From assembly GCA_027531565.1 (NCBI GenBank), contig JAPZSB010000007.1, positions 744,001 to 808,000 of the forward strand: a DNA stretch of 64,000 bases, read 5' to 3'. Positions 16,482 through 34,452 of this stretch are shown piece after piece; positions within the stretch are counted from its first letter, which is position 1; the number at the start of each line of letters is the position of its first letter. The notes beneath the pieces are model-generated. The model had not been told where the DNA came from and did not search any database. It saw only the letters and a program-made list of their open reading frames with translations. The position numbers and the translations under genes are program-made. This DNA comes from Beijerinckiaceae bacterium. GTDB taxonomy: Bacteria; Pseudomonadota; Alphaproteobacteria; Rhizobiales; Beijerinckiaceae.

Positions 16482-17519
16482 ATGAGCCAGGATGTTTCAT
16501 CGTTCGGGGAGGCCCATGGCCGGGCGGTCCAGCAGATCACGCTGAGGAACGGCGCCGGCGCCGAGGCGAAAATCCTGAGCTGGGGCGCTGTCGTGCGCGA
16601 TCTCCTCGTGCCGCATGCCGGCAGCCGGCAGCGCGTGGTGCTGGGGCTGAACACGCTCGAGGAGTACATCGCCCATTCCCCGCATTTCGGCGCGATTGCC
16701 GGGCGCTATGCCAACCGAATCGCGCGCGGGCAGTTCACGCTGGACGGCACGCCCTACCAGTTGCCGCTCAACCAGGAGGGGAAGCATTCGCTCCATGGCG
16801 GCGGGCAGGGTTTCGGCAAGCAGCCCTGGACCCTGCTCCATGCCGATGGGGCAAGCTGCACGCTCGGCCTTGTCTCGCCCGATGGCGATGCCGGCTATCC
16901 CGGCACCTTGCAGGTCACCTGCCGCTACACGCTCACCGAGGGCAATGCCCTGCGGGTGGAACTCTCGGCCTTCACCGACCGGCCGACCATCCTCAACCTG
17001 TGCCATCACAGCTATTTCAACCTCGATGGCGGGCCGGACATCCTCGATCACAGCCTCGCCGTGCGGGCCAATGTGATGACGCCGGTCGATGCCGACCTGA
17101 TCCCGGATGGTTCGCTGGCCCCGGTCTCCGGCACGCCCTTCGATTTCCGCAAACCGCGGCCAATCCGGATGGCCGGGCCCGACGGCAAGCGCTTCTGGTA
17201 TGACCACAATTTCGTACTGCGGCGCGAGCGGCGGGCGCCGGATGCCTCCGGCCTCGAGATCGCCCATGCCGCCACGCTGGCCAGCGCGAGATCCGGCCTT
17301 GCCATGGAGGTCTGGACCTCGGAGCCCTGCCTGCAGGTCTATGACGGGTTCAAAGTGAATGTGCCGGTCGCCGGGCTGGACGGGGCACGATACGGCGCCA
17401 GTGCCGGGATCTGCCTCGAGCCGCAGCACGCGCCGGACAGCCCCAACCTGCCGCATCTGCCCGGCACCGTGCTGCGGCCGGGCGAGCTGTACCGGCAGGT
17501 GACGGAGTATCGGTTCTAA
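16482..17519 (+). CDS. galM: Aldose 1-epimerase (mutarotase)
   Basis: 345-residue GalM-type beta-sandwich enzyme that interconverts sugar anomers. Family motifs seen: GRYANRIARGQF, HSLHGGGQGFG (substrate histidine), NLCHHSYFNLDGG (catalytic histidine) and the C-terminal acid in CLEPQHAPDSPN. Its end overlaps the end of a sugar ABC permease gene on the other strand by 4 bases. The neighbourhood suggests an accessory sugar pathway, comparable to the position of mutarotase YihR in sulfoquinovose operons; that link is inference. Confidence 0.88.
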   Translation: MSQDVSSFGEAHGRAVQQITLRNGAGAEAKILSWGAVVRDLLVPHAGSRQRVVLGLNTLEEYIAHSPHFGAIAGRYANRIARGQFTLDGTPYQLPLNQEGKHSLHGGGQGFGKQPWTLLHADGASCTLGLVSPDGDAGYPGTLQVTCRYTLTEGNALRVELSAFTDRPTILNLCHHSYFNLDGGPDILDHSLAVRANVMTPVDADLIPDGSLAPVSGTPFDFRKPRPIRMAGPDGKRFWYDHNFVLRRERRAPDASGLEIAHAATLASARSGLAMEVWTSEPCLQVYDGFKVNVPVAGLDGARYGASAGICLEPQHAPDSPNLPHLPGTVLRPGELYRQVTEYRF

Positions 17520-18346
17520 CCCTTCACGCCGCCGCTCGTCAGCCCGCTGACCACGCGTTCCTGGAAGATCGCGATGACGATGCAGATCGGCACGATGGCG
17601 ACGATGAGCGCCGCCGAGATGATCGGCCAGGGGAACGAGAATTCGCCCTGATAGAGCGTGATGCCGACCGGCAGGGTGCGGCTGGCGACGCGGGGCGAGA
17701 GCGTCAGCGCCAGCAGGAACTCGTCCCAGGAATTGACGAAGGCGAGGATGCCGGCGGTGAAGACCCCCGGCGCGGTGAGCGGGATCACCACGTGCCAGAG
17801 CGCACCGAGCCGCGTGCAGCCATCGATCATCGCCGCGTTTTCAAGGTCGCGCGGGATGTCCTGGAAGAACGAGATCAACACGAGCGTGCAGACGGGCATC
17901 GAGAGCACGGCATGCGGGAAGATCAGCGCCCACCAGGTGTTGAGCAGGCCGAGATCACGCATGACCTGGAAGAGCGGCACCATCATCGAGATGAGCGGAA
18001 ACATCGCGATGGCCAGCAGGACCGAGAGGATGATGCCCGCGCCGGGCAGCCGCAGCCGGACCAGCGCATAGGCGGCCAGAGCCGAGCAGGTGACGCAGAG
18101 CAGGGTCGAGAGCACCGCCACGACCACCGAGTTGAACAGGAAGCGCAGGATGGGCTGGTCAACGAAAACGCGGATATAGTTCTCGATCGTCGGTGCCTGC
18201 GGGATGATGGTGATTGGCACACGCATCAGCTCCACCTCGGTCTTGAACGAGGTGAAGAGGATCCAAAGCGCCGGGAAGAACCCGTTCGCGGCCACGATGA
18301 GGCCGGCAAGGATGATCAGGGCGCGGCGGTTCCTGAGGAGTTTCAT
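17516..18346 (-). CDS. Sugar ABC transporter permease, MalG/UgpE type
   Basis: 276-residue inner-membrane permease with six predicted helices. The EAA loop (DIPRDLENAAMIDGCTRLGALWHVVIPLTAPG) contacts the ATPase. It is the last gene of a minus-strand operon: ATPase, binding protein, MalF-type permease, MalG-type permease (CUT1 family). It starts 1 base after the upstream permease gene. Such systems import mono- or oligosaccharides or their derivatives. The substrate is unknown, with a sulfonated or acidic sugar considered from context. Confidence 0.9.
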   Translation of the reverse strand: MKLLRNRRALIILAGLIVAANGFFPALWILFTSFKTEVELMRVPITIIPQAPTIENYIRVFVDQPILRFLFNSVVVAVLSTLLCVTCSALAAYALVRLRLPGAGIILSVLLAIAMFPLISMMVPLFQVMRDLGLLNTWWALIFPHAVLSMPVCTLVLISFFQDIPRDLENAAMIDGCTRLGALWHVVIPLTAPGVFTAGILAFVNSWDEFLLALTLSPRVASRTLPVGITLYQGEFSFPWPIISAALIVAIVPICIVIAIFQERVVSGLTSGGVKG

Positions 18347-18347
18347 G

Positions 18348-19259
18348 TTAGTGCCTCCCCGGATCGCGGCGCGTATGGCGGAGATAGAGGCTGGTGATCA
18401 CGGCCGAAACGATGAACATCAGCACGGCGAGAGCCGAGCCATAGCCGAGATCGAGGAAATCCACCGTGGTCTTGTGGATGTACATGGCCAGCGTCTCGGT
18501 CGAATTGCCGGGCCCGCCATTGGTCATCGCATAGGGGATGTCGAAGGTCTGGATCGCGGTGATGGTGCGGAAGATCAAGGCCACGAAAATCGCCGGGCGC
18601 AGCATGGGCAGGGTGATCTCGCGGAATTGCTGCCATTTCGTCGCGCCATCGACCTCCGCCGCCTCGTAAAAGCTTTTCGGGATGGTCTGCAGCCCGGCCA
18701 GCAGCACGAGCGCCACGAAGCTCGACGATTTCCAGATGATCGCGAGGCAGATCGCGAAAAAGGCGAGGCCGGGCGAGGTCAGCCAGTTCAGCGGCTCGAG
18801 ACCGAGGCCGCGGAGCATGGCGTTGGCGATGCCCTGATTAAATTCGAAGAACCAGCGGAAGATCAGGCCGGCAAAGACCAGCGGCAGCGCCCAGGGCAGG
18901 AGCAGGCCGAGCCGCACCGGCCATTTCACCCGGAAGGGCTGGTTGGCCAGCAAAGCGAGGCCAAGTCCGATCACGACAGCCCCGGGCACGGTGACGAGAA
19001 TGTAGAGCAGCGTATGGAGGACCGCCTCGTGGAAGCGGTCATCGCCGAGGGCCTTCACGTAATTCTCGAAGCCCACGAAGGGCGTGCCCATCCAGGGCTG
19101 GGCGAGATGGTTGAAATGGAACGAGTTCCGGATCAGCTCCGCGATCGGATAGAGCACCACCGCCGCCAGCAGCAGGAAGGCCGGGGCCAGCATGGCAAAG
19201 CCAAGCCGGCGTTCCGATCGTTCCAGCGGCGTCAGGCGGTGGCGGATCGCGTCGCTCAT
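18348..19259 (-). CDS. Sugar ABC transporter permease, MalF/UgpA type
   Basis: 303-residue permease with six helices and the EAA loop IPKSFYEAAEVDGATKWQQF. It pairs with the downstream MalG-type permease to form the channel of a CUT1 sugar importer. It lies 7 bases downstream of the binding-protein gene. The start at 19259 gives a normal cytoplasmic N-terminus (LTPLERSERRLGFAMLAPAF). Confidence 0.9.
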   Translation of the reverse strand: MSDAIRHRLTPLERSERRLGFAMLAPAFLLLAAVVLYPIAELIRNSFHFNHLAQPWMGTPFVGFENYVKALGDDRFHEAVLHTLLYILVTVPGAVVIGLGLALLANQPFRVKWPVRLGLLLPWALPLVFAGLIFRWFFEFNQGIANAMLRGLGLEPLNWLTSPGLAFFAICLAIIWKSSSFVALVLLAGLQTIPKSFYEAAEVDGATKWQQFREITLPMLRPAIFVALIFRTITAIQTFDIPYAMTNGGPGNSTETLAMYIHKTTVDFLDLGYGSALAVLMFIVSAVITSLYLRHTRRDPGRH

Positions 19260-19266
19260 CCGCGCC

Positions 19267-20541
19267 TCACCGGAAGATCGCGCCGAGGCGGTTCGTCATG
19301 TCGCCGAGGGCCTGATCAGCGGTTTTCGTGCCGGCCAGGAAGGCATTCATGTTGGTCCGCATGATTTCGGAAACTTCCGTGTAGCGCGGCGTCACCGGGC
19401 GGGAACGGGCCGACTGGACAACCGGCAGGGCCTGTTCGAACCACGGATTGGCCTTCAGAACCTCGGCATCGGTATAGACGCCCGGGAAGACCGGAAGATG
19501 CGAGGCGAGGATGGCCTGCTGCTTCGCCACTTCCGGCGAGGAGAGATAGCGCGCAAGCTTCGCTGCCTCGGCCTTGTTCTTCGAGAAGGCCGACACCGCG
19601 ACCTGCCAGCCGCCGATGCAGGTGGCCTGCTTGTCGGCGGTGAAGCCGGGCAGCGGCACGACGCCGATCTTGCCCTTCACGGTCGAATCCGCGTCATTCT
19701 GCAGGCGGTTCCAGACATACCCCCAGGTCATGCCGAAGATCAGGTTGCCGGCCTGCATGTTCTGGCGGATGCGGTCGGTCGGGATTTCCGCGAGGTTGGG
19801 CGGGGTGACATTCGCCGCCTTGAGGTCCGCCCAGAGCTGGAACGGCTTTTTCGCGGCGGCGCTGGCAAGGTTGAGCTTGCCGTCCTTCAGCATGTCCTCG
19901 CCCGAGCCCCAGAGCGGGACGAGATAGGTGCAGACCGTGCCCTCGATCGGGGCGCCGGCCGTCTCGAAGCCGCGGAGATTGGCATTGCCCTCGGCCGCCA
20001 TGACCTTCTGGGCTGCGGCCTTCAGCTCATCCCAGGTCTTCGGCGGCTGGAGCCCGTGCTTTTCGAGCAGGTCCTTGCGGTAATAAAGGAACTGCGCATC
20101 GGCGAAATAGGGCAGCGCGATGACCTTGCCGTTGACGATATTCGCCGCCCGGTAGGCCGGCAGGTAGCGCGCCATGATCGCGTCCTTCTCGGCCCCGAGA
20201 TAGGAATCGAGCGGCTCGGCCCATTGCGCCGCCGCCCACTGCGCGGGGCGGATGACGTCAATCAGGATCAGGTCGAGCGCGGAATCCTTCGAGGCCAGCA
20301 CGGTATTGAGATATTGCTGCTGCTGTTCGGAGGTGGCACCGCCGACCTCGACCTCGACCTTCACATTCGGGTTGGCCTTCATGTAGCCATCGACGATCTG
20401 GCGCATCACATCGGGGCGCTGCTGGCCTCCGGTGAAGATGCGCAACGTGGTCTGGGCCTGGGCATAGGCCGCGCCGGCGAGAGCGAGGCCTGCGGCGAGG
20501 CCCAGCCGGGTCGCCATGCGGCGGGTGAAGCGTGATGTCAT
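19267..20541 (-). CDS. Sugar ABC transporter periplasmic binding protein (CUT1)
   Basis: 424 residues. A signal peptide (basic MTSRFTRRMATR, hydrophobic LGLAAGLALAGAAY, cleavage near AQA) precedes a family-1 solute-binding protein with TLRIFTGG at the start of the mature part and the typical WDELKAAAQKV segment. ATG 20541 was chosen because GGGAGGA lies 5 bases upstream and the signal peptide starts there; an earlier ATG lacks support. It delivers the substrate to the two permeases encoded downstream. Specificity is not readable without a ligand-site comparison. Confidence 0.9.
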   Translation of the reverse strand: MTSRFTRRMATRLGLAAGLALAGAAYAQAQTTLRIFTGGQQRPDVMRQIVDGYMKANPNVKVEVEVGGATSEQQQQYLNTVLASKDSALDLILIDVIRPAQWAAAQWAEPLDSYLGAEKDAIMARYLPAYRAANIVNGKVIALPYFADAQFLYYRKDLLEKHGLQPPKTWDELKAAAQKVMAAEGNANLRGFETAGAPIEGTVCTYLVPLWGSGEDMLKDGKLNLASAAAKKPFQLWADLKAANVTPPNLAEIPTDRIRQNMQAGNLIFGMTWGYVWNRLQNDADSTVKGKIGVVPLPGFTADKQATCIGGWQVAVSAFSKNKAEAAKLARYLSSPEVAKQQAILASHLPVFPGVYTDAEVLKANPWFEQALPVVQSARSRPVTPRYTEVSEIMRTNMNAFLAGTKTADQALGDMTNRLGAIFR

Positions 20542-20563
20542 GGTGTCCTCCCGTTTGGTGTTG

Positions 20564-21628
20564 TCAGGCAATCGCCAGTCCGGTTTCCGGATCGAAGAGA
20601 TGCGCCTTGTCGAGATCCAGCCGGAGCGTCACCTCGCCGCCGGCCCGCAAGGGCGCCGAAGGCGGGAAGCGCCCGGTCATTTCCACAGTCCCGATCTGCA
20701 TTAGCGCGAGGGTATCGGAGCCGAGCGGCTCGACGATGACCGTCCGCGCCGGAACGCCTTCCGCCCCGGCGAGATGCAGATGCTCGGCGCGGAGACCCAG
20801 CAGGACGTCACGGCCGCCTGCCCGGGCAAAGGCGGCCGGCGCCGCGATGGCAGTACCGCCTGCCAGCGTGACCGTCGCGGCATCGGACGCGATCCGGGCC
20901 GGAACGATATTCATGGACGGTGAGCCGATGAACCGGGCGACAAAGGTCGAACGGGGCTGGCGATAGACCTCGTCCGGCGTGGCGAATTGCTCGACATGGC
21001 CGGCCTTGAGAATGGCGATCCGGTCCGCCAGTGTCATCGCCTCGACCTGATCGTGGGTGACGTAGATGATCGTCGTGCCGAAGCGCTGGTGGAGCTTCTT
21101 GATCTCGACGCGCATCTCGGCGCGGAGCTGGGCATCGAGATTCGAGAGCGGTTCGTCGAACAGGAAGACCTTGGGATCGCGCACGATCGCGCGCCCCATC
21201 GCCACGCGCTGGCGCTGCCCGCCGGAAAGCTGGCCGGGCTTGCGGTCAAGCAGGTGGGTGATCTGCAGGATCTCCGCCGCCTCGTTGACCTTCCTCGCAA
21301 TGGTGGCGGCATCGACGCCACGCATCCGAAGTCCGAAGCCCACATTCTCCGCCACGGTACGATGTGGGTAGAGCGCGTAATCCTGGAAGACCATGGCGAT
21401 GTCGCGGTCACGCGGGGGGAGATCATTGACGACCCTGTCCCCGATGCGGATCGTACCGTCCGTCACGCTTTCGAGGCCGGCGATCATCCGCAGGAGCGTC
21501 GATTTCCCGCAGCCCGACGGACCGACCAGCACGACAAACTCACCATCCCGGACGGAGAGGTCGATGCCATGGATCACCGGCACGGATCCGTAGGCCTTCA
21601 CCACGCTGGCGATCTCGATCCCGGCCAC
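20564..21628 (-). CDS. Sugar ABC transporter ATP-binding protein, UgpC/MalK type
   Basis: 354-residue ATPase with a C-terminal regulatory (TOBE/MalK) domain. Walker [10 protein letters not shown] at residues 37-45, signature [14 protein letters not shown], Walker [13 protein letters not shown] and the switch histidine in [10 protein letters not shown] are all present. The start is read as GTG 21628, because GGGAGGG lies 8 bases upstream and homologous sequence begins there; the open frame extends about 66 bases further without support. First gene of the transporter operon, divergent from the aldolase operon across a 202-base control region. Confidence 0.9.
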
Positions 21629-21717
21629 GTCGTGTTCCCTCCCGCTTCCTTGAGCGTGTGGGTGAACCCGGAGGCCAATCGCGGGCTGTCCCAACTGCCT
21701 GGTGGAAGCTCTCTCTT

Positions 21718-21738
21718 GTCTTATAACTTATATAAGAC
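21718..21738. promoter_or_regulatory. 8-bp inverted repeat in the divergent ABC/aldolase promoter
   Basis: Perfect arms GTCTTATA and TATAAGAC around a 5-base AT-rich spacer, midway between the divergent starts at 21628 and 21831. It is the only long dyad in this region and is AT-rich against a GC-rich background, as expected for an operator over a promoter. It does not resemble the TGAAA-N4-TTTCA boxes near the LacI gene. The regulator is unknown. Confidence 0.55.
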
Positions 21739-21830: not shown

Positions 21831-22844
21831 ATGAAAGCCCTCAGCGCAGGAAAATTGCGGGGTCTTCGCCGCATGGCGGATGAAGCCGGCCGCTTCAAGA
21901 TGACCGCCGTCGACCAGCGCCCGCCGATCATCAATCCCATTGCCGCGGCGCATGGCGGCACGGCGCCCTGGGAGGCTGTTGCCCGGTTCAAGACGCTGCT
22001 GGTCGAGCAGTTGCAGGACCACTCGACCGCGATGCTGCTGGATCCGAACTATGCCTATCCGAAGGCCGAGCCGGTGCTCGACCCGCGGAAGGGCCTCATC
22101 ATGACGCTGGAGGATTCCGCCTTCCGCGAGACGGCAGACGGTCGGCTCTCCTCGGAGATCGATGGCTGGTCCGTCGCCAAGATCCGCCGCATGGGCGCAG
22201 ATGCGGTCAAGGTGCTGGCCTGGTACCGGCCGGATGCTCCGGCAGCGGTCAACGCCAATCAGAAGGCCTTCACCCGCCGGATCGGCGAGGCCTGCCGCCG
22301 TCATGACATCCCCTTCCTCTTCGAGCTTCTCGTCTATCCGCTTCCCGGCGAGAAGAACCAGACGACGCAGTATATCGAGATGGCCGACAAGAAGAGCGAA
22401 CTGGTGCTCGAGAGCGTGGCGGAATTCGCCAAGCCCGAATACGAAGTCGATGTCTTCAAGCTCGAGAGCCCGGTCCCCGCGCGCGATTGCGACGGCTCCG
22501 CGCGGGTCCAGGCCCTGTTCGACGAGATGGGCCGGCTCTGCGGCCGCCCCTGGGTGATGCTGTCCGCCGGAGCGGGCATGTCCGAGTTCAAGGCTGTGCT
22601 GGACCATGCCTATCGTGCCGGCGCTTCAGGCTATCTCGCCGGCCGGGCGATCTGGTCCGAGGCGTTCAAGGCCTATCCGGACTGGGCGTCCATCGAGGCT
22701 GGCCTTGCCGGGCGGGCGGTTGACTATATGCGCGAGATCAATGCCTTGACCGATGCCCAGGCGGTGCCGTGGTGGCAAGGCTGGGGCGGAGCCAGCCTGG
22801 CCGGTGCCGACGAGAATTTCCGCCACGCCTACCCGGAATCCTGA
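21831..22844 (+). CDS. Class I aldolase, LacD/YihT-like
   Basis: 337-residue TIM-barrel aldolase of the tagatose-1,6-bisphosphate aldolase (LacD) group, which includes the sulfofructose-phosphate aldolase YihT. The probable Schiff-base lysine is in DVFKLESPVP, with the LacD-type MTAVDQRPPI near the N-terminus and SAGAGMSEFK near the C-terminus. ATG 21831 has GGAGG 10 bases upstream; the upstream open extension has no support. It is first in a three-gene plus-strand operon with an isomerase and a dehydrogenase. The natural substrate cannot be told apart from sequence alone: a ketohexose phosphate or a sulfonated analogue. Confidence 0.72.
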   Translation: MKALSAGKLRGLRRMADEAGRFKMTAVDQRPPIINPIAAAHGGTAPWEAVARFKTLLVEQLQDHSTAMLLDPNYAYPKAEPVLDPRKGLIMTLEDSAFRETADGRLSSEIDGWSVAKIRRMGADAVKVLAWYRPDAPAAVNANQKAFTRRIGEACRRHDIPFLFELLVYPLPGEKNQTTQYIEMADKKSELVLESVAEFAKPEYEVDVFKLESPVPARDCDGSARVQALFDEMGRLCGRPWVMLSAGAGMSEFKAVLDHAYRAGASGYLAGRAIWSEAFKAYPDWASIEAGLAGRAVDYMREINALTDAQAVPWWQGWGGASLAGADENFRHAYPES

Positions 22845-22848
22845 TCCG

Positions 22849-24270
22849 ATGAAGCCCGTTCTGGTTCTTGCCCTCGCGCGCCCGACCTTCGACGTTCCCT
22901 TCGCGGAAACCTATGCTGCTGCTGCCTTCGCGCGGCTCGATGCCGAGGGCATCCCGACCTGCGGACCACGCACGCTGCTGTTCGATGCGGATGCCGCGCG
23001 CGCGGCGATGGCCGGCTTCGACCCCGCCTCGCTGGGCGGCATCCTGCTGCTGCAGATCACCTTCACCGATGCCTCGATGACGGTGGAGATCGCGCGGGCC
23101 TTCCCGGGCCTGCCGCTTGCGCTCTGGGCCTTCCCGGAACCGCGTGCCGGCGGGCGGTTGCGGCTCAATTCCTATTGCGGCCTGAACCTTGCCGCCCATG
23201 CGCTGGGCCGGGCCGGGGTGCCGCATGGCTGGCTGTTCTCCGCGCCGGAGGCGCCCGGTCTCGCCGGTTCGATCCGCGCGGCGCTCCGTGTGACCACCCT
23301 CCCCGCCCCTTCGCTGCGACCGGCGCGTGCCGATGCCGCCTCGGCGGACGCGGTCGCGGCGATCGATGCCGCGCTCCGCGACCGTCGGATCGGGCTGCTC
23401 GGAGAGCATCCTGCGGGGTTCGATACCTGCCGCTACGACCCGGCGCGCGTGGCCGGTCTGCTGGGCGGCGGCGGGGTGACCCCGTTGCCGCTTGGCAAGC
23501 TTTTCGAACGGGCCCGGGCCGCGGATGCCGACACGACCGCGCGGAATCTCGCCGAGGCGCGTCAGACCTATGCCGGCACCGAGGCGGTCGATCAGGGCCA
23601 GCTGGAGAAATCGCTCCGTCTGCTTGAGGGCCTGCGCGGCCTCAAGGCGGAGCATGGGCTCGATGCCTTCGCCGTCCGCTGCTGGCCCGAGACCTTCACC
23701 GAATATGGCTGCGCCATCTGCGGGCCGATGGGCATCCTCACCGAGGCGGGCACGCCCTGCGCCTGCGAGGCCGATGTGATGGGCGCGGTGACGACGCTGC
23801 TGGTCAATGCCGCGTCGGGCCAGACCGGCTGGCTGGTTGACATCGTGGATATGGACGAGGCCAGTGACACGGGCGTGTTCTGGCATTGCGGCTCGGCGCC
23901 GCTCTCGATGTGCGATCCCGAATTCCCCGCCCGGGCGCAGATCCATTCCAACCGGAAGATGCCCCTTCTGGCGGAATTCACCCTGAAACCGGGCCGGATC
24001 ACGATGGCGCGGCTCAGTCAGGCCCGGAACGGGCTGGCGCTGGCGCTCGGCACCGGCGAAGTGATCCGGGCGCCGATGAGCTTCACCGGTACGAGCGCAG
24101 TGGTGCGTTTCGATGGTGGGGCGAAACAGGCCGGGGCCCGGCTGATCGGCTCCATGCTGGAGCATCATGTGGCGTTCGCCTATGGCGATTTCCGTGGCGC
24201 GCTCGAAGCCTGGGCGGCGGCAAGGGGCCTGCCGGTGATCGACCTCACCCCCGAGGGAGCCACTGCATGA
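22849..24270 (+). CDS. L-fucose/arabinose isomerase-like protein (COG2407 type)
   Basis: 473 residues starting MKPVLVLALARPTFDVPFAE, 4 bases after the aldolase gene. The layout matches fucose-isomerase-like sugar isomerases: an N-terminal Rossmann-like part, the central EYGCAICGPMGILTEAGTPCACEADVMGA, in which the acid-bearing segment resembles the metal-binding site, and a C-terminal beta domain with IHSNRKMPLLAEF. By family it would interconvert an aldose and a ketose, giving the aldolase a ketose substrate. The exact sugar is unknown. Its stop overlaps the next start by 4 bases. Confidence 0.62.
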   Translation: MKPVLVLALARPTFDVPFAETYAAAAFARLDAEGIPTCGPRTLLFDADAARAAMAGFDPASLGGILLLQITFTDASMTVEIARAFPGLPLALWAFPEPRAGGRLRLNSYCGLNLAAHALGRAGVPHGWLFSAPEAPGLAGSIRAALRVTTLPAPSLRPARADAASADAVAAIDAALRDRRIGLLGEHPAGFDTCRYDPARVAGLLGGGGVTPLPLGKLFERARAADADTTARNLAEARQTYAGTEAVDQGQLEKSLRLLEGLRGLKAEHGLDAFAVRCWPETFTEYGCAICGPMGILTEAGTPCACEADVMGAVTTLLVNAASGQTGWLVDIVDMDEASDTGVFWHCGSAPLSMCDPEFPARAQIHSNRKMPLLAEFTLKPGRITMARLSQARNGLALALGTGEVIRAPMSFTGTSAVVRFDGGAKQAGARLIGSMLEHHVAFAYGDFRGALEAWAAARGLPVIDLTPEGATA

Positions 24271-25388
24271 GCGCGCAACCCCTGCGCTATGGCCTGATCG
24301 GCGCGGGCATGATGGGCCGGGAGCATATCCGCAATCTCGGCCTGATCCCCGGTTCCGTTCTGGCAGCAATCGCCGATCCGAGCGCCGAGCAGCGGGCGCT
24401 CTCGGCCGCCGAGGCGGAGCGACATCTCGGCCAGGCGCCGGCCGCCTTTGCCGATTACCGGGAGATGCTGGCGGCGGGCGGGCTCGATGCCGTGGTGATC
24501 GCCAGCCCGAACGATACCCATATCGCGGTGCTCGAGACCCTGCTGACGGCCGGGACGCCGCTTGGCATCCTTGTCGAGAAGCCGGTCGTGACGCGGCTCG
24601 CGGATTGCGGCCGGTTGGAGGCGATGGCGAAAAACCATCCGCGCCCGATCTGGGTGGCGATGGAATATCGCTACATGCCGCCGGTGGCCGAGTTGCGCCG
24701 AGCCGTTTCGGCCGGCGAGATGGGGAAACTGCGGATGTTCGCCATCCGCGAGCATCGTTTTCCGTTCCTCGAGAAGGTCGGTGACTGGAACCGCTTTTCC
24801 GAGCGGACCGGCGGAACGCTCGTCGAGAAATGCTGTCATTTCTTCGACCTGATGCGGCTGGTGGTCGGCGCGGAACCGGTGCGGGTCTATGCCTCCGGCG
24901 CGGCCGATGTGAACCATCGCGACGAACGCTATGACGGGCGGGTACCGGATATTCTCGACAATGCCTTCGTCATCGTCGATTTCGCCAATGGCTGCCGGGC
25001 CAGTCTCGATCTCTGCATGTTCGCCGAGGGCAGCTGGTTCCAGGAGGAGATCGCCGCGACCGGCGACATCGCGAAGATCGAGGTGTTCATTCCCGGGCCG
25101 GCGCGGTTCTGGCCCGGCGGGGCCGAACGGGAGAGCGAGGTGGTGGTCTCGCCGCGTGCGCCCAAGGGCCCGGTCCGGCGCAAGATCCATGTCGACGAGG
25201 CGATCCTCAAGGCCGGCGACCATCACGGCTCGACCTATTTCCAGCATCTCGGCTTCCGGGCCGCGATGCTGGAAGGGGCCCCGGTCGACGTGACGCTCGC
25301 CGACGGGCTCCGGGCGGTGCGGATCGGGCTCGCCGCCGAGGAAAGCGCCCGGACGGGCGAGGCGGTCCGGCTCGACAGGTTCCGCTGA
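24267..25388 (+). CDS. Gfo/Idh/MocA-family NAD(P)-dependent dehydrogenase
   Basis: 373 residues. The N-terminal Rossmann motif GLIGAGMMGREH, the family motif EKPVV (active-site lysine) and a C-terminal alpha/beta substrate domain with HGSTYFQHLGFRAAML are visible. Members oxidise sugars, inositols or related polyols. ATG 24267 overlaps the isomerase stop (ATGA), so it is translationally coupled and probably acts on the same sugar. It ends 4 bases from a convergent dehydrogenase gene. Confidence 0.82.
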   Translation: MSAQPLRYGLIGAGMMGREHIRNLGLIPGSVLAAIADPSAEQRALSAAEAERHLGQAPAAFADYREMLAAGGLDAVVIASPNDTHIAVLETLLTAGTPLGILVEKPVVTRLADCGRLEAMAKNHPRPIWVAMEYRYMPPVAELRRAVSAGEMGKLRMFAIREHRFPFLEKVGDWNRFSERTGGTLVEKCCHFFDLMRLVVGAEPVRVYASGAADVNHRDERYDGRVPDILDNAFVIVDFANGCRASLDLCMFAEGSWFQEEIAATGDIAKIEVFIPGPARFWPGGAERESEVVVSPRAPKGPVRRKIHVDEAILKAGDHHGSTYFQHLGFRAAMLEGAPVDVTLADGLRAVRIGLAAEESARTGEAVRLDRFR

Positions 25389-26397: not shown

Positions 26398-26406
26398 GGC
26401 CCTGTC

Positions 26407-27180
26407 CTATTTTGCGGTGAAGCCGCCATCCACGGCCAGGGTTTGCCCTGTGACATAGGCGGAAGCGTCCGAGGCGAGGAATACCGTCGCACCGTAGAGA
26501 TCCTCGAGCTGGCCATTGCGGCCGATCGCGGTCTGCGCTGCGTTGCGGGCGGAGCGCTCGGGATCGGCGAAGACCGGGGCGGTGAGCGGGGTCGGAAAAA
26601 AGCCGGGAGCGACGGCATTGCAGGTCACGCCATGACGGGACCATTCCTCGGCGATGGCGCGGGTGAGCTGGACGACACCCCCCTTGCCGGCACCGTAGGG
26701 CGCGGAATTCGGAAAGGCGCGGTAGCTCTGCAGCGAGGCGATGTTGATGATCCGCCCCCAGCTCCGCGCTGCCATGGCCGGAGCGAGCGCCTGGGCGAGC
26801 AGGAAGGGCGCGCGCAGATGCAGCGCCATATGCAGGTCGAAGGCCTCGGCCGTGACATCGCCGAAGGGCTGCCGGAGATTCACCCCGGCCGCGTTGACGA
26901 GGATGTCGGGCGAAAGGTCGAAGCGCGCCAGCTCCCCCGTGACAGTGGTGGCGCAACCGGCATCCGCGAGATCGACGCGCAGGCCGCGGGCAATGATGCC
27001 CTCCCGGGTCAGGTCCGCAATCGCGGCAGCCATTTCCTCCTGCCGGCGAGCGGCAAGGACGACAACAGCTCCGGCCAGCCCGAGGGCGCGCGCCATGGCG
27101 AGGCCGATGCCGCTGTTGCCCCCCGTGACGAGCGCGGTCCGGCCCGTCAGGTCGAACAGGGCGCCGAGGCGGAAGGCCAT
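26407..27180 (-). CDS. Short-chain dehydrogenase, candidate HpsO
   Basis: 257-residue SDR. Seen: the cofactor motif TGGNSGIG, NAAG, the catalytic serine in NIASLQSYRAFPNS, and the YGAGKGG pair (Tyr and Lys of YxxxK), plus the C-terminal VTGQTLAVDGGFT. It converts a secondary alcohol and ketone with NAD(P). It starts exactly where the upstream HpsN-like gene stops, and a Zn-ADH gene follows 9 bases later. In hps clusters an SDR of this kind (HpsO) works with HpsP on DHPS enantiomers; the specific substrate here is inferred. Confidence 0.7.
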   Translation of the reverse strand: MAFRLGALFDLTGRTALVTGGNSGIGLAMARALGLAGAVVVLAARRQEEMAAAIADLTREGIIARGLRVDLADAGCATTVTGELARFDLSPDILVNAAGVNLRQPFGDVTAEAFDLHMALHLRAPFLLAQALAPAMAARSWGRIINIASLQSYRAFPNSAPYGAGKGGVVQLTRAIAEEWSRHGVTCNAVAPGFFPTPLTAPVFADPERSARNAAQTAIGRNGQLEDLYGATVFLASDASAYVTGQTLAVDGGFTAK

Positions 27181-29609
<2,429 letters not shown>

Positions 29610-29636
29610 GTCGTTTCTCCCTTTGTTGTCTTGGTG

Positions 29637-30884
29637 TCAGGCCGGCTGGCGAGGCTTCGCGCCAGACGTGGGTGGAGCCGATTCGTGTGCGACCGCTTCG
29701 ATCGATTCCCGGACGATGGCGGCAATCAGGTCACATTCCTCATCGGACAGGCTCAATGGCGTGCGGATATCGCAGAGCCCGGCGAGGACATCATGGGTCC
29801 GCGAGAGAGCCCCCTGCTCGCCGGCATAAAGCCAATGGCGCGGCGCGCTGGTGAAGCCGACCTGGCTGGCGGCCCCGAACCATTTGACGGGCACGCCCCG
29901 GGCTTTCGCGAGGGCCAGGAAAGCCTCGACGCGTTCCGACGGCAGGCCGAGGACGGAGAACTGAACCGAGGTTGCCGAGAAGTCCTGCGGGCCGCCCCGT
30001 TCCGGCACCTTGAGATGCTGGCTGCGGCGCAGGCCGGCAGCGATGCGGTCATGGATGGCGTTCCAGCGGGCGGCCCGGGCGGGGAGTTCCGCCAGTTGCG
30101 GGCGCAGCATCGCAGCCGCGAGCGCGCTCATCCGCAGGCTGAAATTCGGGACATGCCCGGCCACGGAATCCAGCACAGCCGGGCCGGGCGAACTCAGATG
30201 CTGGCCATGCAGCATGTAGCTGCCGGAATGGAGGATCGCCCTGGCTGCCATTTCCTCGTCATCAAGGACAAGGAAACCGCCCTCGCCGGCATTGAGATGC
30301 TTGTAGGTCTGGGCGCTGAAGGCCGCGGCCGCGCCGAACGTGCCAATGGTCCGCCCGTTCCAGCGCGCGCAGAGCGAATGGGCGCAATCCTCGACAACCT
30401 GGAGCCCGCATTCGGAGGCCACTGTCATGACGGCGTCCATGTCGGCGAGATGGCCGCGCATATGCGAGAGCAGCAGCACCCGGGCACCGGATTCCCGCGC
30501 CTTGCGCCGCAGGTCATCCGGATCGATGACGTAATCCGGTCCGATCTCAACGATCACCGGCCGCGCCGCCGCATGGAGGATCGCGCCCGGCACCGGAGCC
30601 AGCGTAAAGCCGTTGACCAGCACCGCATCGCCCGGCTGGAGGCCGAGCACCTTGAGCGCCAGGAAGAGTGCGCCGCCCCCGGAATTCACTGCGATGCAGA
30701 AGCGCCGGCCGATAAAGGCCGCGAATTCCTGCTCGAGCAACGAAACATCGAGCTGATCAACGCCCATCTCGCCATAGCGGAACAGCCGGCCGGACCGCAT
30801 GAGTTCCACCGCGCGGGCAATGCCGGCCTCGGGGATCGGCGTCGGCTCGGTCAGGTCTCGCGTCAGGCGGGCGGGTTCAGACAT
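29637..30884 (-). CDS. DegT/DnrJ/EryC1/StrS-family aminotransferase
   Basis: 415-residue fold-I PLP enzyme. Cofactor features: NSGGGALFLALKVL, VEDCAHSLCA (the aspartate that contacts the PLP nitrogen) and the internal aldimine lysine in SAQTYKHLNAGEGG. Usual members transaminate keto-sugars in polysaccharide or antibiotic pathways; a few act on small keto acids. Here it is embedded inside an ABC transporter operon, overlapping the ATPase gene by 8 bases and 27 bases before the binding-protein gene. Action on a keto-sulfonate, or release of an amino group from an imported aminosulfonate, is an inference. Confidence 0.8.
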   Translation of the reverse strand: MSEPARLTRDLTEPTPIPEAGIARAVELMRSGRLFRYGEMGVDQLDVSLLEQEFAAFIGRRFCIAVNSGGGALFLALKVLGLQPGDAVLVNGFTLAPVPGAILHAAARPVIVEIGPDYVIDPDDLRRKARESGARVLLLSHMRGHLADMDAVMTVASECGLQVVEDCAHSLCARWNGRTIGTFGAAAAFSAQTYKHLNAGEGGFLVLDDEEMAARAILHSGSYMLHGQHLSSPGPAVLDSVAGHVPNFSLRMSALAAAMLRPQLAELPARAARWNAIHDRIAAGLRRSQHLKVPERGGPQDFSATSVQFSVLGLPSERVEAFLALAKARGVPVKWFGAASQVGFTSAPRHWLYAGEQGALSRTHDVLAGLCDIRTPLSLSDEECDLIAAIVRESIEAVAHESAPPTSGAKPRQPA

Positions 30885-31674
30885 CCTTGAACCCTTTCTC
30901 CTCGCGCAGCGACTTCCAGATATGCGTGCGCAGATGAACGAAGGATTCGAGGTCCATCACATCCTCGATCCGGGCATGGCTGTCCCAGTTCTCGCGCTCG
31001 CGGACGGCCTTGATATCGAGCACTTCCTTGATGCGGCCGGGGCGTCGCGTCATGATCGCCACCCGGTCGGCGAGATAGACCGCCTCCTCGACGGCATGGG
31101 TGATGAAGAGCACGGTACGCGGGTTGTGCCGGGCCAGCCGGACCAACTCTTCCTGCATCACCACGCGGGTCTGCGCATCGAGCGCGCCGAAAGGCTCGTC
31201 CATCAGCAGCACTTCCGGATCGAGCACATAGGCGCGGGCAATGGCCACGCGCTGCTGCATGCCGCCGGAAAGCTGGTGCGGGAAGGCATCGACATGCGTC
31301 TCGAGATTCATCAGCTTCAGCGCGCCGGCCACGAGATCGTTCCGCTCGCCGATCGGCAGGTTCTTGTTGCGCAGGCCAAGCTCGATATTCTCGCGCACGG
31401 TCTTCCACGGAAAGAGCGCGAATTGCTGGAACACGACCGCGCGGTCCGGGCCCGGCGCGGTGACCGGCCGCCCATTGACCAGCACCGAGCCGGCGCTGGC
31501 GGCCTCGAAGCCCGCGACCATGCGCAGGCAGGTGGTCTTGCCACAGCCCGACGGGCCGACAATGGCGACGAATTCCTTGTCGGCAATCTCCAGATTGATG
31601 TCATCCAGCGCCTTCACGCCGCCCGCGCCGTGGCCGAAGACCTTGTCGACATTCCGGAAGCTGATCGACCCCAT
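30877..31674 (-). CDS. ABC transporter ATP-binding protein, TauB/SsuB type
   Basis: 265 residues. Walker A GPSGCGKTT, signature LSGGMQQRVAIARA, Walker B VLLMDEPFGALD and the switch histidine FITHAVEEAVYLADR are present, with the short C-terminus typical of nitrate/sulfonate/taurine importers. It energises the two permeases encoded upstream (9 bases away). Its 3' end overlaps the aminotransferase start. Confidence 0.9.
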   Translation of the reverse strand: MGSISFRNVDKVFGHGAGGVKALDDINLEIADKEFVAIVGPSGCGKTTCLRMVAGFEAASAGSVLVNGRPVTAPGPDRAVVFQQFALFPWKTVRENIELGLRNKNLPIGERNDLVAGALKLMNLETHVDAFPHQLSGGMQQRVAIARAYVLDPEVLLMDEPFGALDAQTRVVMQEELVRLARHNPRTVLFITHAVEEAVYLADRVAIMTRRPGRIKEVLDIKAVRERENWDSHARIEDVMDLESFVHLRTHIWKSLREEKGFKDV

Positions 31675-31683
31675 GGCTGCCCC

Positions 31684-32472
31684 TTACGATTCCAATCCGC
31701 GCCGGCGGCGAAGCCAGCCCTCGCCCTGACGCAGCAGGATGTCGATCAGCATGCCGACGATCCCGATGGCGATCATGCCGGCCATGACGGTCGGCGTCTG
31801 GACCGAACCCTGCGCCTGCACCATCATGAAGCCCACGCCGGCTGCGGCGACGATCAGTTCGGCACCGACAAGGCTCTGCCACCCAAGGCCAGCCGAGACG
31901 CGCAGGCCGGCGATGATCGAGGGAACTGCCGCCGGCAGCAGCACTTCGAGGATCATCCGCGAGGAGGGCGTGCCCAGCATGCGCGCGGCCTCGATGAGGC
32001 GTGGCTCGACGAACCGCGCGCCGCGATAGGCATTGATCAGGCAGGGCGGGAAGGCGCCGGCGAAGATGATCATGATCGGCCCGCCGATCCCGGTGCCGAA
32101 CCAGAGCGCCGCGAAGGGCACCCAGGCGATCGGCGCGATGAAGCGCAGCCCGTCGAAGATCGGCGTGACAATATCATCCAGCAGGCGGAAGAAGCCCATC
32201 AGCAGGCCGAGCGGCACGCCGATCGCGGCGGCCAGCAGCACGCCATAGGCATAGCGCTGGAAGCTGGATGCGAGATGGGCCGGCAGGGTCGCCCCGGCGA
32301 AGGGGGATGTCAGCAGATGGATGAAGCGTGAGGCCACATCGAGCGGACCGGGCAGGAACTGGGCAGGGACGATCCCCGAGCCCGACAGGAAGCTCCAGAG
32401 GCCGATGAAGCTTGCGAGGCCGGCAAGGCCCAGCAACATGGTTTCGCGGAAGCCGAGGGGGGGCGATGTCAT
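31684..32472 (-). CDS. ABC transporter permease, TauC/SsuC type (second)
   Basis: 262-residue inner-membrane permease. ATG 32472 (MTSPPLGFRETMLLGLAGLA) follows the stop of the first permease gene by 2 bases; the longer open frame upstream runs out of frame through that gene. The permease signature EAARMLGTPSSRMILEVLLPAAVPSIIAGLR is clear. Having two different TauC-like permeases rather than one suggests a heterodimeric channel. Confidence 0.88.
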   Translation of the reverse strand: MTSPPLGFRETMLLGLAGLASFIGLWSFLSGSGIVPAQFLPGPLDVASRFIHLLTSPFAGATLPAHLASSFQRYAYGVLLAAAIGVPLGLLMGFFRLLDDIVTPIFDGLRFIAPIAWVPFAALWFGTGIGGPIMIIFAGAFPPCLINAYRGARFVEPRLIEAARMLGTPSSRMILEVLLPAAVPSIIAGLRVSAGLGWQSLVGAELIVAAAGVGFMMVQAQGSVQTPTVMAGMIAIGIVGMLIDILLRQGEGWLRRRRGLES

Positions 32473-32474
32473 GG

Positions 32475-33260
32475 TCAGTCCCTCGCCGCCACGTTCCAGG
32501 CAAGGGCCCGGCGCTCGATCCTCGCCAGCAGCACGGTCGTGGCCCAGCCCAGGATGCCCACCGTGACCATCCCGACGAGAATCATGCCGGGATAGATGTC
32601 CTGCTGCGCCATGTTCAGCACGAAGCCGACGCCGACCAGCGCACCGACCAGTTCCGCCGCCACCAGCGTGGTCCAGCTCGCCTGCAGCGACAGGCGCAAG
32701 CCGGTGAAGATCATCGGGAGGGAGGCCGGCAGGATGACCTCGCGCACCATCCGCCAGCGCGGCGTGCCGAGCATGCGGGCGGCCTCGAGGACCGGCTTGT
32801 CGATATTCCGGACGCCGGTAAAGGCGTTGATGGCCGAGGGGACGAAGGCGGAGAACCAGATCACCAGGATTTTCGCCGCATCGCCGAGGCCGAGCCAGAG
32901 AATGGCGAGCGGGATCCAGGCCAGCGGCGGGATCGGCCGGATGATCAGGAAGACCGGATTGATGAAGGCCTCGACGCGGCGGCTCCAGCCCATCCAGAGG
33001 CCGAGCGGCACGCCCGTCATCACCGCGACGGTGAAGCCCATCAGCACGAGCTTCAGGCTGTGGACGGCGTGGCTGGCGAGCGTGGAACCGGCATAGCCGC
33101 GCCCGTTGATCTGCTTCAGCGAGAACCAGAATTCGGCCGGAGAGGGGAAGCGCGCGCCGGTGACAAGCCCGGTCAGCGTGGTCAGCCCGAACCACAGGGC
33201 GACCAGACCGATCACGGTCATCCCGCCGATAAGTGTCTTCCGACTGACCAAGGGCGCCAT
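32475..33260 (-). CDS. ABC transporter permease, TauC/SsuC type (first)
   Basis: 261-residue permease with the same signature (EAARMLGTPRWRMVREVILPASLPMIFTGLR) and about six helices. It is the promoter-proximal gene of the eight-gene minus-strand operon (permease, permease, ATPase, aminotransferase, binding protein, HpsN-, HpsO- and HpsP-like). Its 175-base upstream region carries three LacI-type operator candidates. By family the transporter imports sulfonates or similar anions. Confidence 0.9.
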   Translation of the reverse strand: MAPLVSRKTLIGGMTVIGLVALWFGLTTLTGLVTGARFPSPAEFWFSLKQINGRGYAGSTLASHAVHSLKLVLMGFTVAVMTGVPLGLWMGWSRRVEAFINPVFLIIRPIPPLAWIPLAILWLGLGDAAKILVIWFSAFVPSAINAFTGVRNIDKPVLEAARMLGTPRWRMVREVILPASLPMIFTGLRLSLQASWTTLVAAELVGALVGVGFVLNMAQQDIYPGMILVGMVTVGILGWATTVLLARIERRALAWNVAARD

Positions 33261-33297
33261 GCAGCGCGACCTCCCGGATATTCCTGCACTCTTCTTC

Positions 33298-33311
33298 TGA
33301 AAGCGCTTTCA
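33298..33311. promoter_or_regulatory. LacI-type operator 1 (perfect palindrome)
   Basis: TGAAAGCGCTTTCA is a perfect 14-base palindrome with the central CG typical of LacI/PurR-family operators. It lies 38-51 bases upstream of the first sulfonate permease gene, where a repressor would block transcription. The likely ligand is the divergent LacI-family protein encoded at 33436. Confidence 0.75.
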
Positions 33312-33356
33312 TACAGAGTGATGCGGAGAGGAGGGTGAGTCAACCGCCCGGGCTGA

Positions 33357-33370
33357 TGAAAGTTTTTTCA
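33357..33370. promoter_or_regulatory. LacI-type operator 2
   Basis: TGAAAGTTTTTTCA has the same TGAAA-N4-TTTCA frame as operator 1 but a degenerate centre. It lies between operators 1 and 3, centre-to-centre 59 and 56 bases from them. Confidence 0.55.
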
Positions 33371-33410
33371 ATTTCATTGCCTCGCGGCGGGCAATGCGAT
33401 ATCCGCGCCG

Positions 33411-33428
33411 GCTGAAACTTCTTTCAGC
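33411..33428. promoter_or_regulatory. LacI-type operator 3, at the LacI gene start
   Basis: GCTGAAACTTCTTTCAGC has perfect 7-base arms and contains the same TGAAA-N4-TTTCA frame. It ends 7 bases before the regulator's ATG, so binding here would also repress the regulator's own expression. Confidence 0.65.
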
Positions 33429-33435
33429 AGGTGGC

Positions 33436-34452
33436 ATGGCCCGGAACCGGATCCGACTCAGCGAGGTTGCCCGCGAGGCCGGCGTGTCGCCTGCCACGGT
33501 CTCGCGCGCCATCAGCCAGCCGGAGCTGCTTTCAGCCGAAACCCTGGCCCGTGTCCGGCGGGCGGCCGACCATCTCGGCTATCGCCCCGATGCCGCCGCG
33601 CGGGCCCTTGCCTCCGGACGTTCGATGACAATCGGCGCGGTGATGCCGACGCTCGACAACGCCATCTTCTCCAAGGCCCTCCAGGCGATGCAGGCCCAGC
33701 TGTCCGGCGACGGCTACCAGCTGCTCGTCGCCTCGCATGATTACAGCAAGGCGGCCGAAGCCGAATGCATCCGCACCCTGCTGGCGCGCGGCGTCGACGG
33801 GCTGATCCTTGTCGGGGCAGAGCGGATCGCCGAGGCGGCACAGCTGCTCTCCCAGTCCGGCATTCCCGTGGTGATGACCTGGTGCGCGCCCGAGGGGTCG
33901 CCCTCGGTGCTGGTCGACAACGAGCATGCCGGCCTGCTGGCGACCCGCCACCTGATCGCGCTCGGTCATCGCCGGATCGGCGTGATCACCGGCGCGACGC
34001 GCTTCAATGACCGCCAGCGCGGGCGCTATCGCGGCGTGCGCCGCGCGCTCGAGGAAGCCGGCCTGACCCTGCCGCCCGCCCTCGCCTGCGAGCAGGCGAC
34101 AACCCTCGCCGGCGGGCGGATGGGCTGCGCTCAGCTGCTCGACCTCGCCGAGCCACCGACGGCGATTGTCGGCGGGATCGATCTCATCGCCATCGGCTGC
34201 ATGGTCGAGGCGCAGGCCCGCGGTCTCGCCATTCCGGCGGATCTCTCGGTGGCGGGCATCGACGATCTCGACATGTCCGCCCATGTCTCGCCCTCGCTGA
34301 CGACGGTGCATGTCCCGACAGCCCGGATCGGCGCCGAGGCGGCGCGGATGATGGTCGCCATCCTGCGGGAAGAGCCCGGGCCGACCGCGCTGACGCTGCC
34401 GGTCGACCTGATCGTCCGCCGCTCCACGGGGCCCGCGCCGGGCAGGGCGTGA
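33436..34452 (+). CDS. LacI-family transcriptional regulator
   Basis: 338 residues. N-terminal HTH IRLSEVAREAGVSPATVSRA and hinge-region VRRAADHLGYRPDAAARAL, then a periplasmic-binding-protein-like effector domain (GAVMPTLDNAIFSKAL, VDNEHAGLLATRHLIALGHRRIG, SVAGIDDLDMSAHVSPSLTTV). ATG 33436 is chosen because the HTH begins there. It is divergent from the sulfonate transporter/hpsN-like operon and separated from it by three TGAAA-N4-TTTCA palindromes, so it is the likely repressor of that operon and of itself. The effector is unknown. Confidence 0.88.
   Translation: MARNRIRLSEVAREAGVSPATVSRAISQPELLSAETLARVRRAADHLGYRPDAAARALASGRSMTIGAVMPTLDNAIFSKALQAMQAQLSGDGYQLLVASHDYSKAAEAECIRTLLARGVDGLILVGAERIAEAAQLLSQSGIPVVMTWCAPEGSPSVLVDNEHAGLLATRHLIALGHRRIGVITGATRFNDRQRGRYRGVRRALEEAGLTLPPALACEQATTLAGGRMGCAQLLDLAEPPTAIVGGIDLIAIGCMVEAQARGLAIPADLSVAGIDDLDMSAHVSPSLTTVHVPTARIGAEAARMMVAILREEPGPTALTLPVDLIVRRSTGPAPGRA

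Follow-up and report, generated by a model that had tools for sequence, protein, structure and literature searches.

A candidate sulfoquinovose pathway divided between two loci, and a predicted dihydroxypropanesulfonate operon, in a Beijerinckiaceae genome

We analysed a 64,000-nt stretch of a Beijerinckiaceae genome (hereafter the window; C13:744001-808000 in a 3.67 Mb genome of 13 contigs), for which an original prediction had proposed a locus for catabolism of sulfosugars and C3-sulfonates. Every gene named there was found in its place, as a long open frame with clear family matches. The prediction held that sugar uptake, isomerisation, aldol cleavage and oxidation of the C3-sulfonate could be joined in one locus; the genes do adjoin, but they fall into two groups, sulfosugar genes at 16.5-25.4 kb and an hps/tau operon at 25.4-33.3 kb, and a separate candidate operator belongs to each. 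On the comparisons described below, we consider it very likely that the sulfosugar genes are the upper half of a sulfoquinovose (SQ) pathway of the sulfo-Embden-Meyerhof-Parnas (sulfo-EMP) type, that the hps/tau genes are a separate operon for 2,3-dihydroxypropane-1-sulfonate (DHPS), and that the lower half of the SQ pathway lies on a second contig, C12.

Sulfosugar genes in the window

The sulfosugar group consists of eight genes and a candidate operator, listed here with the matches on which each label is based (ABC, ATP-binding cassette).

16482-17519, plus strand: aldose 1-epimerase, probable SQ mutarotase (PF01263, 273 bits)
17516-18346, minus strand: CUT1 ABC permease 2 (PF00528)
18348-19259, minus strand: CUT1 ABC permease 1 (PF00528)
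19267-20541, minus strand: SmoF-like sulfoquinovosyl-glycerol binding protein (best PDB sequence match SmoF, 7nbz)
20564-21625, minus strand, start approximate: CUT1 ABC ATPase (ABC_tran, OB_MalK, TOBE_2)
21725-21738, no strand: candidate GntR operator, AACTTATATAAGAC, within the promoter region from which the ATPase and aldolase genes diverge (2 mismatches to GTCTTATATAAGAC)
21831-22844, plus strand: class I aldolase, probable sulfofructose-1-phosphate aldolase (PF01791, DeoC/LacD-type)
22849-24270, plus strand: FucI/AraI-fold isomerase, probable SQ isomerase (NCBIfam SftI model, AlphaFold2 model)
24267-25388, plus strand: GH188-like NAD-dependent sulfoquinovosidase, SqgA-like (matches to 8qc2, 8qc3 and 8zn9)

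The last of these genes had been labelled a Gfo/Idh dehydrogenase, and a sulfoquinovosidase had been reported as missing from the window. The protein scores 467 bits against 8qc2, 455 against 8qc3 and 410 against 8zn9, with the next chain at 70 bits; the first of these, 8qc2, is a GH188 sulfoquinovosidase structure on which PMC11465081 draws. Its sulfonate loop, EHRFPFLEK, has R164, L168 and K170 at the published R166, L170 and K172. The offset that fits these three residues puts the published Tyr136 and His193 on Tyr and His of 8qc2, and the published Glu163 one position ahead of the Glu in 8qc2. We conclude that, by these matches, the protein is a GH188-like sulfoquinovosidase and not an ordinary dehydrogenase, and hence that the window does contain a candidate for this step.

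The import, isomerisation and aldol cleavage of a sulfosugar that had been proposed for this group are supported by a SmoF-type importer, an SftI-related isomerase and a class I aldolase. In a PDB sequence search the CUT1 binding protein scored 410 bits against SmoF (7nbz), with the runner-up at 212 bits, and homologues of CUT1 permease 2 are present at 97-99% in three comparison loci (L043, L046 and L047). The aldolase retains the Schiff-base Lys column; its closest relative, 8tnf (318 bits, 51% identity), is labelled just as a DUF2090 protein, and it scores 130 bits against LacD and 60 against YihT. For the isomerase, PDB sequence searches with the protein itself and with a five-sequence profile gave no relevant chain, and its structure was therefore predicted. 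All 41 PDB matches of the AlphaFold2 model (pLDDT 90.5, from an alignment of 17 sequences) in Foldseek at E<=0.001 were arabinose or fucose isomerases, at 12-16% identity, TM scores of 0.49-0.59 by query length and large overall rmsd. The best of them (E 8.6e-20, TM 0.55, 13% identity) places the protein in the FucI/AraI fold. The epimerase has a weak, partial match to E. coli YihR (31% over 97 aa), and its substrate is for that reason read from context.

A scan of named genomes with the isomerase returned 400 relatives. Locus counts rest on the best 80 of these 400, and gene-content counts on the 44 of the 80 that have full flanks; since these loci share kinship, counts over the 44 are not independent. 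Control loci numbered 14 (12 centred on HpsN and two from the genome itself), and identity thresholds were chosen by us for each protein. The closest named loci, at 88-91% protein identity, are from two Beijerinckiaceae metagenome-assembled genomes (MAGs), from a Hyphomicrobiales MAG of pond origin and from Rhabdaerophilum sp. SD176 (the genome of L046), so that the host is probably a Rhabdaerophilum-like bacterium of the Hyphomicrobiales. Full-flank loci have an aldolase homologue in 38 of 44 cases, an epimerase homologue adjoining the isomerase in 24, slcC in 33 and suyB in 23. A kinase homologue is present in 41, the exceptions being L043, L045 and L046. Sulfoquinovosidase genes occur in 37, as GH188 (26) or GH31 (11) and never as both together. 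Isomerase, aldolase, kinase, sulfoquinovosidase and suyB are all found in 20 of the 44. The control loci have no aldolase, kinase, GH188 or GH31 homologue, one suyB and two YeiH homologues.

The second locus and a shared candidate operator

The original prediction found no sugar kinase in the window and advised a search for suyAB elsewhere in the genome. The genome has a kinase candidate on C12, a PfkB-type protein with 182 bits to the solved sulfofructose kinase 7ag6 (next match 138) and 37% identity to YihV. It is accompanied by gntR, suyA, suyB, a gene for a YeiH-type exporter, slcC-, comC- and slaB-like genes and a second SmoF-like binding protein gene, so that the advised search for suyAB was successful. 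SuyA matches PF04295 at 110 bits, and the gene for the small subunit, SuyB, adjoins it with SlcC- and ComC-like neighbours; a close SuyB relative (81%) adjoins hpsNOP in L183. The second binding protein (positions 11352-12572 of L015, the C12 locus) lies beside the kinase and is 46% identical to that of the window. Homologues of the window's CUT1 permeases were not detected in the fetched 19 kb of L015.

Other candidates for these functions were rejected. For an Xsc route, nine thiamine diphosphate (ThDP) enzymes gave weak matches, all below the cut-off of 676 bits, with 265 bits as the highest score. For a sulfo-SMO (SmoC/SquD) route, the genome has no PF00296 luciferase-family match (control positive in 10/14). 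The single PF07221 protein in the genome has 25 bits to YihS and was not accepted as the actual isomerase, although the E. coli control is also negative for PF07221. The single GH31 gene is on C13, far from the window and in neither locus, and is 25% identical to YihQ over 387 aa. A second PF04295 gene, on C1, has neighbours that by eye belong to hexuronate catabolism.

Both halves form one cluster in L047 (Hyphomicrobiales MAG), L048 (R. calidifontis) and L052 (Hyphomicrobiales MAG), in the order epimerase, importer, kinase, aldolase, isomerase, GH188, gntR, suyA, suyB, yeiH, slcC, comC; the clusters of L047 and L048 continue with slaB-like and yitT genes after comC, and the binding protein is the sole importer component recognised in L048. 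In the genome analysed here the set is split, with importer, aldolase, isomerase and GH188 in the window and kinase, gntR and the suy genes on C12. L043, L045 and L046 carry the sulfosugar half as in the window, with hps/tau attached, and in L044 the sulfosugar half can be followed to the point where the contig stops. In the genomes of L043-L046 the kinase stands beside a second binding protein, gntR and suyA (about 4 kb viewed in each). The two binding-protein paralogues and the complementary gene content look like the outcome of a duplication or of two acquisitions, with reciprocal loss afterwards. By eye, a YitT-like membrane protein ends the suy half in L047, L048 and the genome's own L015.

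A dyad search of divergent promoters, relatives included, found palindromes resembling GTCTTATATAAGAC in the ATPase/aldolase region of the window and in the gntR/suyA region of C12. At up to 2 mismatches GTCTTATATAAGAC occurs at three places in the genome (the window, C12 gntR/suyA and C10), and its backward control at none; the third near-match is GCCTTATATAACAC at C10:57039-57052. A match at up to 3 mismatches in L015 is rare by chance, arising in 7 of 200 shuffles. Among the 80 isomerase loci the motif is present in 51, compared with one for the backward control and a median of 1 (maximum 13) for up to 50 permuted palindromes. A GntR homologue (>=35% identity) occurs in 22 of the 29 full-flank loci with the motif and in 1 of the 15 without it (Fisher p 1e-5, uncorrected for kinship among the loci). 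We conclude that the two halves appear to remain one regulon through the shared candidate GntR operator.

Several observations weigh against reading the two loci as one SQ pathway. In NCBIfam the isomerase matches the SQ isomerase SftI alone, at 234 bits and a cut-off of 700; because it misses the cut-off we file it as a distant relative, and not as a member, of SftI/SqvD, and one weak isomerase relative (L035, 31%) stands in a context without homologues of this set's aldolase or kinase. Since the aldolase is 22% identical to YihT and 30% to LacD, its probable substrate is read from context. The SuyB-, SlcC-, ComC- and YeiH-like proteins of C12 miss the cut-offs of their best NCBIfam models (for the ComC-like protein, NF040650 at 193 bits, cut-off 500). 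The SlaB-like protein passes the succinate-semialdehyde dehydrogenase (SSADH) model TIGR01780 (679 bits, cut-off 646) and scores 654 bits against SSADHs and 593 against 8c54; because SSADH models and enzymes score highest, its substrate is taken from gene position. The entry 8c54 is probably a sulfolactaldehyde dehydrogenase structure. Residues of sulfolactaldehyde dehydrogenase are treated in PMC10599462, which does not give this entry code. As for the operator, a window match at up to 3 mismatches arises in 29 of 100 shuffles and is not rare. The window and C12 matches are also partly circular, because the motif was read from regions that include both. In addition, the operator is absent from 15 of the 44 full-flank loci; 14 of those 15 also lack the GntR homologue.

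FucI-type isomerases work on galacto-configured 6-deoxysugars. Given also that the isomerase and the aldolase are distant from the characterised enzymes compared, the substrate might be another sulfosugar, such as sulfofucose or one not yet known, handled by the same isomerase-kinase-aldolase logic; an EMP-like sulfofucose route is weighed in PMC12421959. However, SQ and SQ-glycerol are the compounds on which GH188 (PMC11465081, PMC10755693) and SmoF were characterised, and a GH31 gene takes the place of GH188 in 11 of the full-flank loci. We regard a different sulfosugar as very unlikely. The same distance from characterised sulfo-enzymes would fit an ordinary operon for a non-sulfonated sugar that lies beside a DHPS operon by chance, but this is extremely unlikely given the SmoF, GH188 and YihV-like matches and the 20 loci that suyB shares with isomerase, aldolase, kinase and sulfoquinovosidase. 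We retain SQ as the predicted substrate.

The hps/tau operon and its aminotransferase gene

The second group contains the following features (SDR, short-chain dehydrogenase/reductase).

25393-26397, minus strand: HpsP-like Zn alcohol dehydrogenase, S-DHPS dehydrogenase by homology (PF08240/PF00107)
26407-27180, minus strand: HpsO-like SDR, R-DHPS dehydrogenase by homology (PF13561)
27181-28494, minus strand: HpsN, R-DHPS 3-dehydrogenase by homology (C. pinatubonensis HpsN 8v35)
28560-29609, minus strand: Tau/Ssu-type binding protein (TIGR01728, 97 bits, below the cut-off of 163.5)
29637-30884, minus strand: DegT/DnrJ/EryC1 aminotransferase, between tauA and tauB (PF01041, 184 bits)
30877-31674, minus strand: TauB-type ABC ATPase (PF00005)
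31687-32478, minus strand: TauC-type permease (PF00528)
32475-33260, minus strand: TauC-type permease (PF00528)
33298-33311, no strand: candidate LacI-type operator TGAAAGCGCTTTCA, between tauC and lacI (perfect palindrome)
33394-34452, plus strand: LacI-family regulator, divergent from the operon (PF00356, PF13377)

HpsN-, HpsO- and HpsP-like genes in an operon with a Tau-type transporter had been predicted here, and scores, residues and matches to known gene sets agree with this. Seven fetched loci (L178-L184) have an hpsN-O-P set; the SDR matches the second gene of these sets (HpsO position) at 51-57% and the Zn alcohol dehydrogenase the third (HpsP position) at 48-55%. The top PDB match of the Tau-type binding protein is a taurine-binding protein, at 41 bits. 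The HisD-like protein scores 702 bits against C. pinatubonensis HpsN (8v35) and 484 against another R-DHPS dehydrogenase, but just 240 against the best HisD, and is 38% identical to the genome's own HisD. It retains nine HpsN residues (numbered as in PMC11382572 plus one): His126 and Lys353, assigned in that paper to the sulfonate, Glu318, His319 and Asp352 to catalysis, Gln248, His251 and His411 to zinc, and in addition Ser226. The genome's own HisD carries Tyr at both 126 and 353. Whether the protein would group with true HisD had been named as a check; by bit scores and key residues, used here in place of a tree, that identity is rejected. We conclude that the protein is of the HpsN type, with R-DHPS activity predicted by homology. 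A third HisD-family protein is encoded at C5:83417-84637 (L002/L016) and by eye adjoins genes for a ThDP enzyme and a LivH-type transporter; it has Leu at the position of HpsN His126 and Lys at 353, and is neither HisD- nor HpsN-like at the key residue.

In L175 and L179-L183, too, hpsN is found together with a LacI gene. Loci L179-L183 combine an hpsN-O-P set with LacI and an importer of the tripartite ATP-independent periplasmic (TRAP) type, the latter assigned from weak matches and by eye; in the window, the Tau-type ABC importer and DegT take the place of that importer. The palindrome TGAAAGCGCTTTCA occurs exactly in L043, L045 and L046, and otherwise in L154 alone among 198 loci. At the equivalent place, L179, L181 and L183 have TGTAAGCGCTTACA and L180 has a two-mismatch form, and no such site was found in L182 within 2 mismatches.

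We also compared the two groups in a class sample of 385 genomes. Excluding the genome itself, HpsN is present in 4 of 5 genomes with a strong isomerase match (>=300 bits, a threshold picked post hoc with the data already seen) and in 24 of the 379 others; when all isomerase matches are counted, the two co-occur in 4 of 10. The sole other genome of the same genus in this sample has neither an isomerase match nor an HpsN match at E <= 1e-140, so that the trait looks accessory.

The DegT gene raises an alternative for the hps/tau operon, in which DegT would deaminate an amino-sulfonate, for example cysteinolic acid, that is the operon's only substrate or one used in addition to DHPS. DegT and HpsN are direct neighbours in L173-L175, and some 5 kb separate them in L176 and L177. 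L174, L176 and L177 encode CuyA (546-552 bits against a cut-off of 450), and the two candidate racemases checked, one in L174 and one in L177, are CuyB cysteate racemases (280 bits, cut-off 190), which suggests amino-sulfonate chemistry around these HpsN relatives. The importer is of the Tau type, and L-cysteate sits in the HpsN site like the product (PMC11382572). However, the window has both HpsO and HpsP, neither of which was recognised near HpsN in L173-L177 (in L177 an SDR some 8 kb off matches at 33%). Among the 21 class-sample genomes with DegT (E <= 1e-70), six, our own included, have it near HpsN (adjoining in G079, G148 and G226 and about 5 kb off in G327 and G028), but the remaining 15 have the two genes at a distance from each other or gave no HpsN. 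A literature search combining cysteinolate, aminotransferase and sulfonate returned no paper; no biochemical work on this DegT group was found. We judge the alternative unlikely; it is compatible with a DHPS function.

A more specific scheme, which we hold to be unlikely and put forward as speculation, starts from cysteinolic acid, an abundant algal sulfonate (PMC8703288). DegT might deaminate it to a keto- or aldehyde-sulfonate that HpsO, HpsP and HpsN could convert to sulfolactate, in which case sulfolipid sugar, DHPS and cysteinolate would share one sulfolactate sulfolyase. If this improbable scheme were true, the HpsN-DegT pair together with CuyA and CuyB in relatives would be a cysteinolate-to-cysteate route.

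Predicted pathway and its relation to known systems

The steps of the proposed pathway are all drawn from homology and gene order. The SmoF-type ABC importer would bring in sulfoquinovosyl glycerol, from which the GH188-like enzyme would free SQ, the sugar component of plant and algal sulfolipids; the epimerase would aid ring opening, and the FucI-type isomerase would convert SQ to sulfofructose. The YihV-like kinase from C12 would then form sulfofructose-1-phosphate, which the class I aldolase would cleave to dihydroxyacetone phosphate and S-sulfolactaldehyde. The SlaB-like dehydrogenase, the SlcC/ComC-like enzymes and SuyAB, all from C12, would take S-sulfolactaldehyde through sulfolactate to pyruvate and sulfite, and sulfite or sulfate may leave the cell through the YeiH-type protein. 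The hps/tau operon, with its own LacI adjoining, would import DHPS and oxidise it into the common pool of sulfolactaldehyde and sulfolactate.

The original prediction instead had the aldolase hand sulfolactaldehyde directly to the neighbouring HpsN, which would make the two operons one pathway. This arrangement would fit the position of hps/tau next to the sulfosugar genes, also seen in L043, L045 and L046, and HpsN takes sulfolactaldehyde about 12-fold better than R-DHPS (PMC11382572). However, HpsN is about 10^6-fold selective for R-DHPS (PMC11382572), whereas sulfosugar cleavage yields S-sulfolactaldehyde, its stereocentre coming from C5 (PMC12421959). The latter is stated for KDSG-type aldolases and is carried over by analogy to the window aldolase. 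On these grounds HpsN is probably not the next step. In addition, hps/tau has its separate LacI-type operator, 41 of the 44 full-flank isomerase loci are without an HpsN homologue (L043, L045 and L046 being those that have one), and the slaB-like gene is located with suyAB. A direct hand-over is therefore quite improbable.

We favour two operons that meet downstream. A GabD-2 enzyme accepts sulfolactaldehyde of either configuration, and S- and R-sulfolactate are handled by SlcC and ComC (PMC11131964), so that S-sulfolactate could be converted to R-sulfolactate for SuyAB. The SlaB-like dehydrogenase and the SlcC/ComC-like proteins beside suyAB would fit the sulfolactaldehyde step better than HpsN. 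HpsP makes sulfolactaldehyde from S-DHPS (PMC11131964), and the sulfosugar and hps operons would accordingly meet in one pool.

The predicted pathway shares with the E. coli yih sulfo-EMP pathway its intermediates, an isomerase, a PfkB-type kinase, a PF01791 class I aldolase and an aldose epimerase. It differs in having a FucI-type rather than a YihS-type isomerase, an aldolase distant from YihT, a GH188-like rather than a GH31 sulfoquinovosidase, and an ABC importer; its genes are in two loci, and the sulfonate is apparently desulfonated, whereas it is exported in E. coli. With sulfo-EMP2 it shares a FucI-like family isomerase, but the cluster here has a PF01791 class I aldolase and a PfkB-type kinase in place of the class II aldolase SqiA and the PfkA-type kinase SqiK (PMC9594981). 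Hybrid sulfo-EMP1/2 sets are reported from Proteobacteria and Actinobacteria (PMC12890257, citing other work), and a hybrid sulfo-EMP from Vibrio (PMC13372026).

The closest published gene content that we found is that of the GH188 clusters of the actinobacterial IMCC26103 type, described by bioinformatics, which hold GH188, fucose isomerase, sulfofructose kinase, sulfofructose phosphate aldolase, sulfolactaldehyde dehydrogenase, a PGDH-like protein and SuyAB together (PMC11465081). The part of that paper drawn on here mentions no HpsNOP, split or operator; moreover, the host here is of the Hyphomicrobiales, and the GH188 loop has Leu rather than Tyr at one position. Paracoccus wurundjeri likewise joins sulfosugar cleavage with SlcC/ComC/SuyAB in one organism, but by Entner-Doudoroff chemistry on sulfofucose and not by an EMP-type route (PMC12421959). 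That paper, from 2025, describes a tandem sulfofucose pathway and calls it unusual for a single bacterium both to cleave a sulfosugar and to mineralise sulfolactate (PMC12421959). The HpsN, HpsO and HpsP set is shared with hpsRNOUP-suyAB of Cupriavidus pinatubonensis and with Roseobacter hps operons. In the window, however, the set is combined with a Tau-type ABC importer and DegT, where the known operons have HpsU, of the major facilitator superfamily (PMC11382572), or a TRAP importer (L179-L183), and suyAB is on a different contig from the hps genes. A literature search found no account of this gene combination in Hyphomicrobiales. We conclude that the enzyme families are known and that the newer elements are the combination, the split, the regulon and the DegT gene.

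Elsewhere in the window, a membrane protein with a TauE/SafE-like motif by eye (51506-52411) is a possible further sulfite exporter; it is near dnaA/dnaN/recF/gyrB-like genes at 53.6-61 kb, also assigned by eye. Upstream of the sulfosugar genes, at 9430-16210, translations read by eye indicate respiratory genes, namely an accessory cluster like that of a cbb3 oxidase and a gene for a NorB-like protein, together with a regulator of the Crp/Fnr type.

Taken across both contigs, the SQ gene set of this one genome looks complete, from import through cleavage to desulfonation. Because the five-gene set stands together in 20 of the 44 full-flank loci, we suggest that EMP-type mineralisation of SQ within a single cell may be common among Alpha- and Gammaproteobacteria. 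Such pathways are obscured by family names (Gfo/Idh dehydrogenase, tagatose aldolase, histidinol dehydrogenase), and the shared operator would be a simple marker for these regulons even where the cluster is split. The HpsN-DegT pairing, in turn, is a testable lead on amino-sulfonate catabolism.

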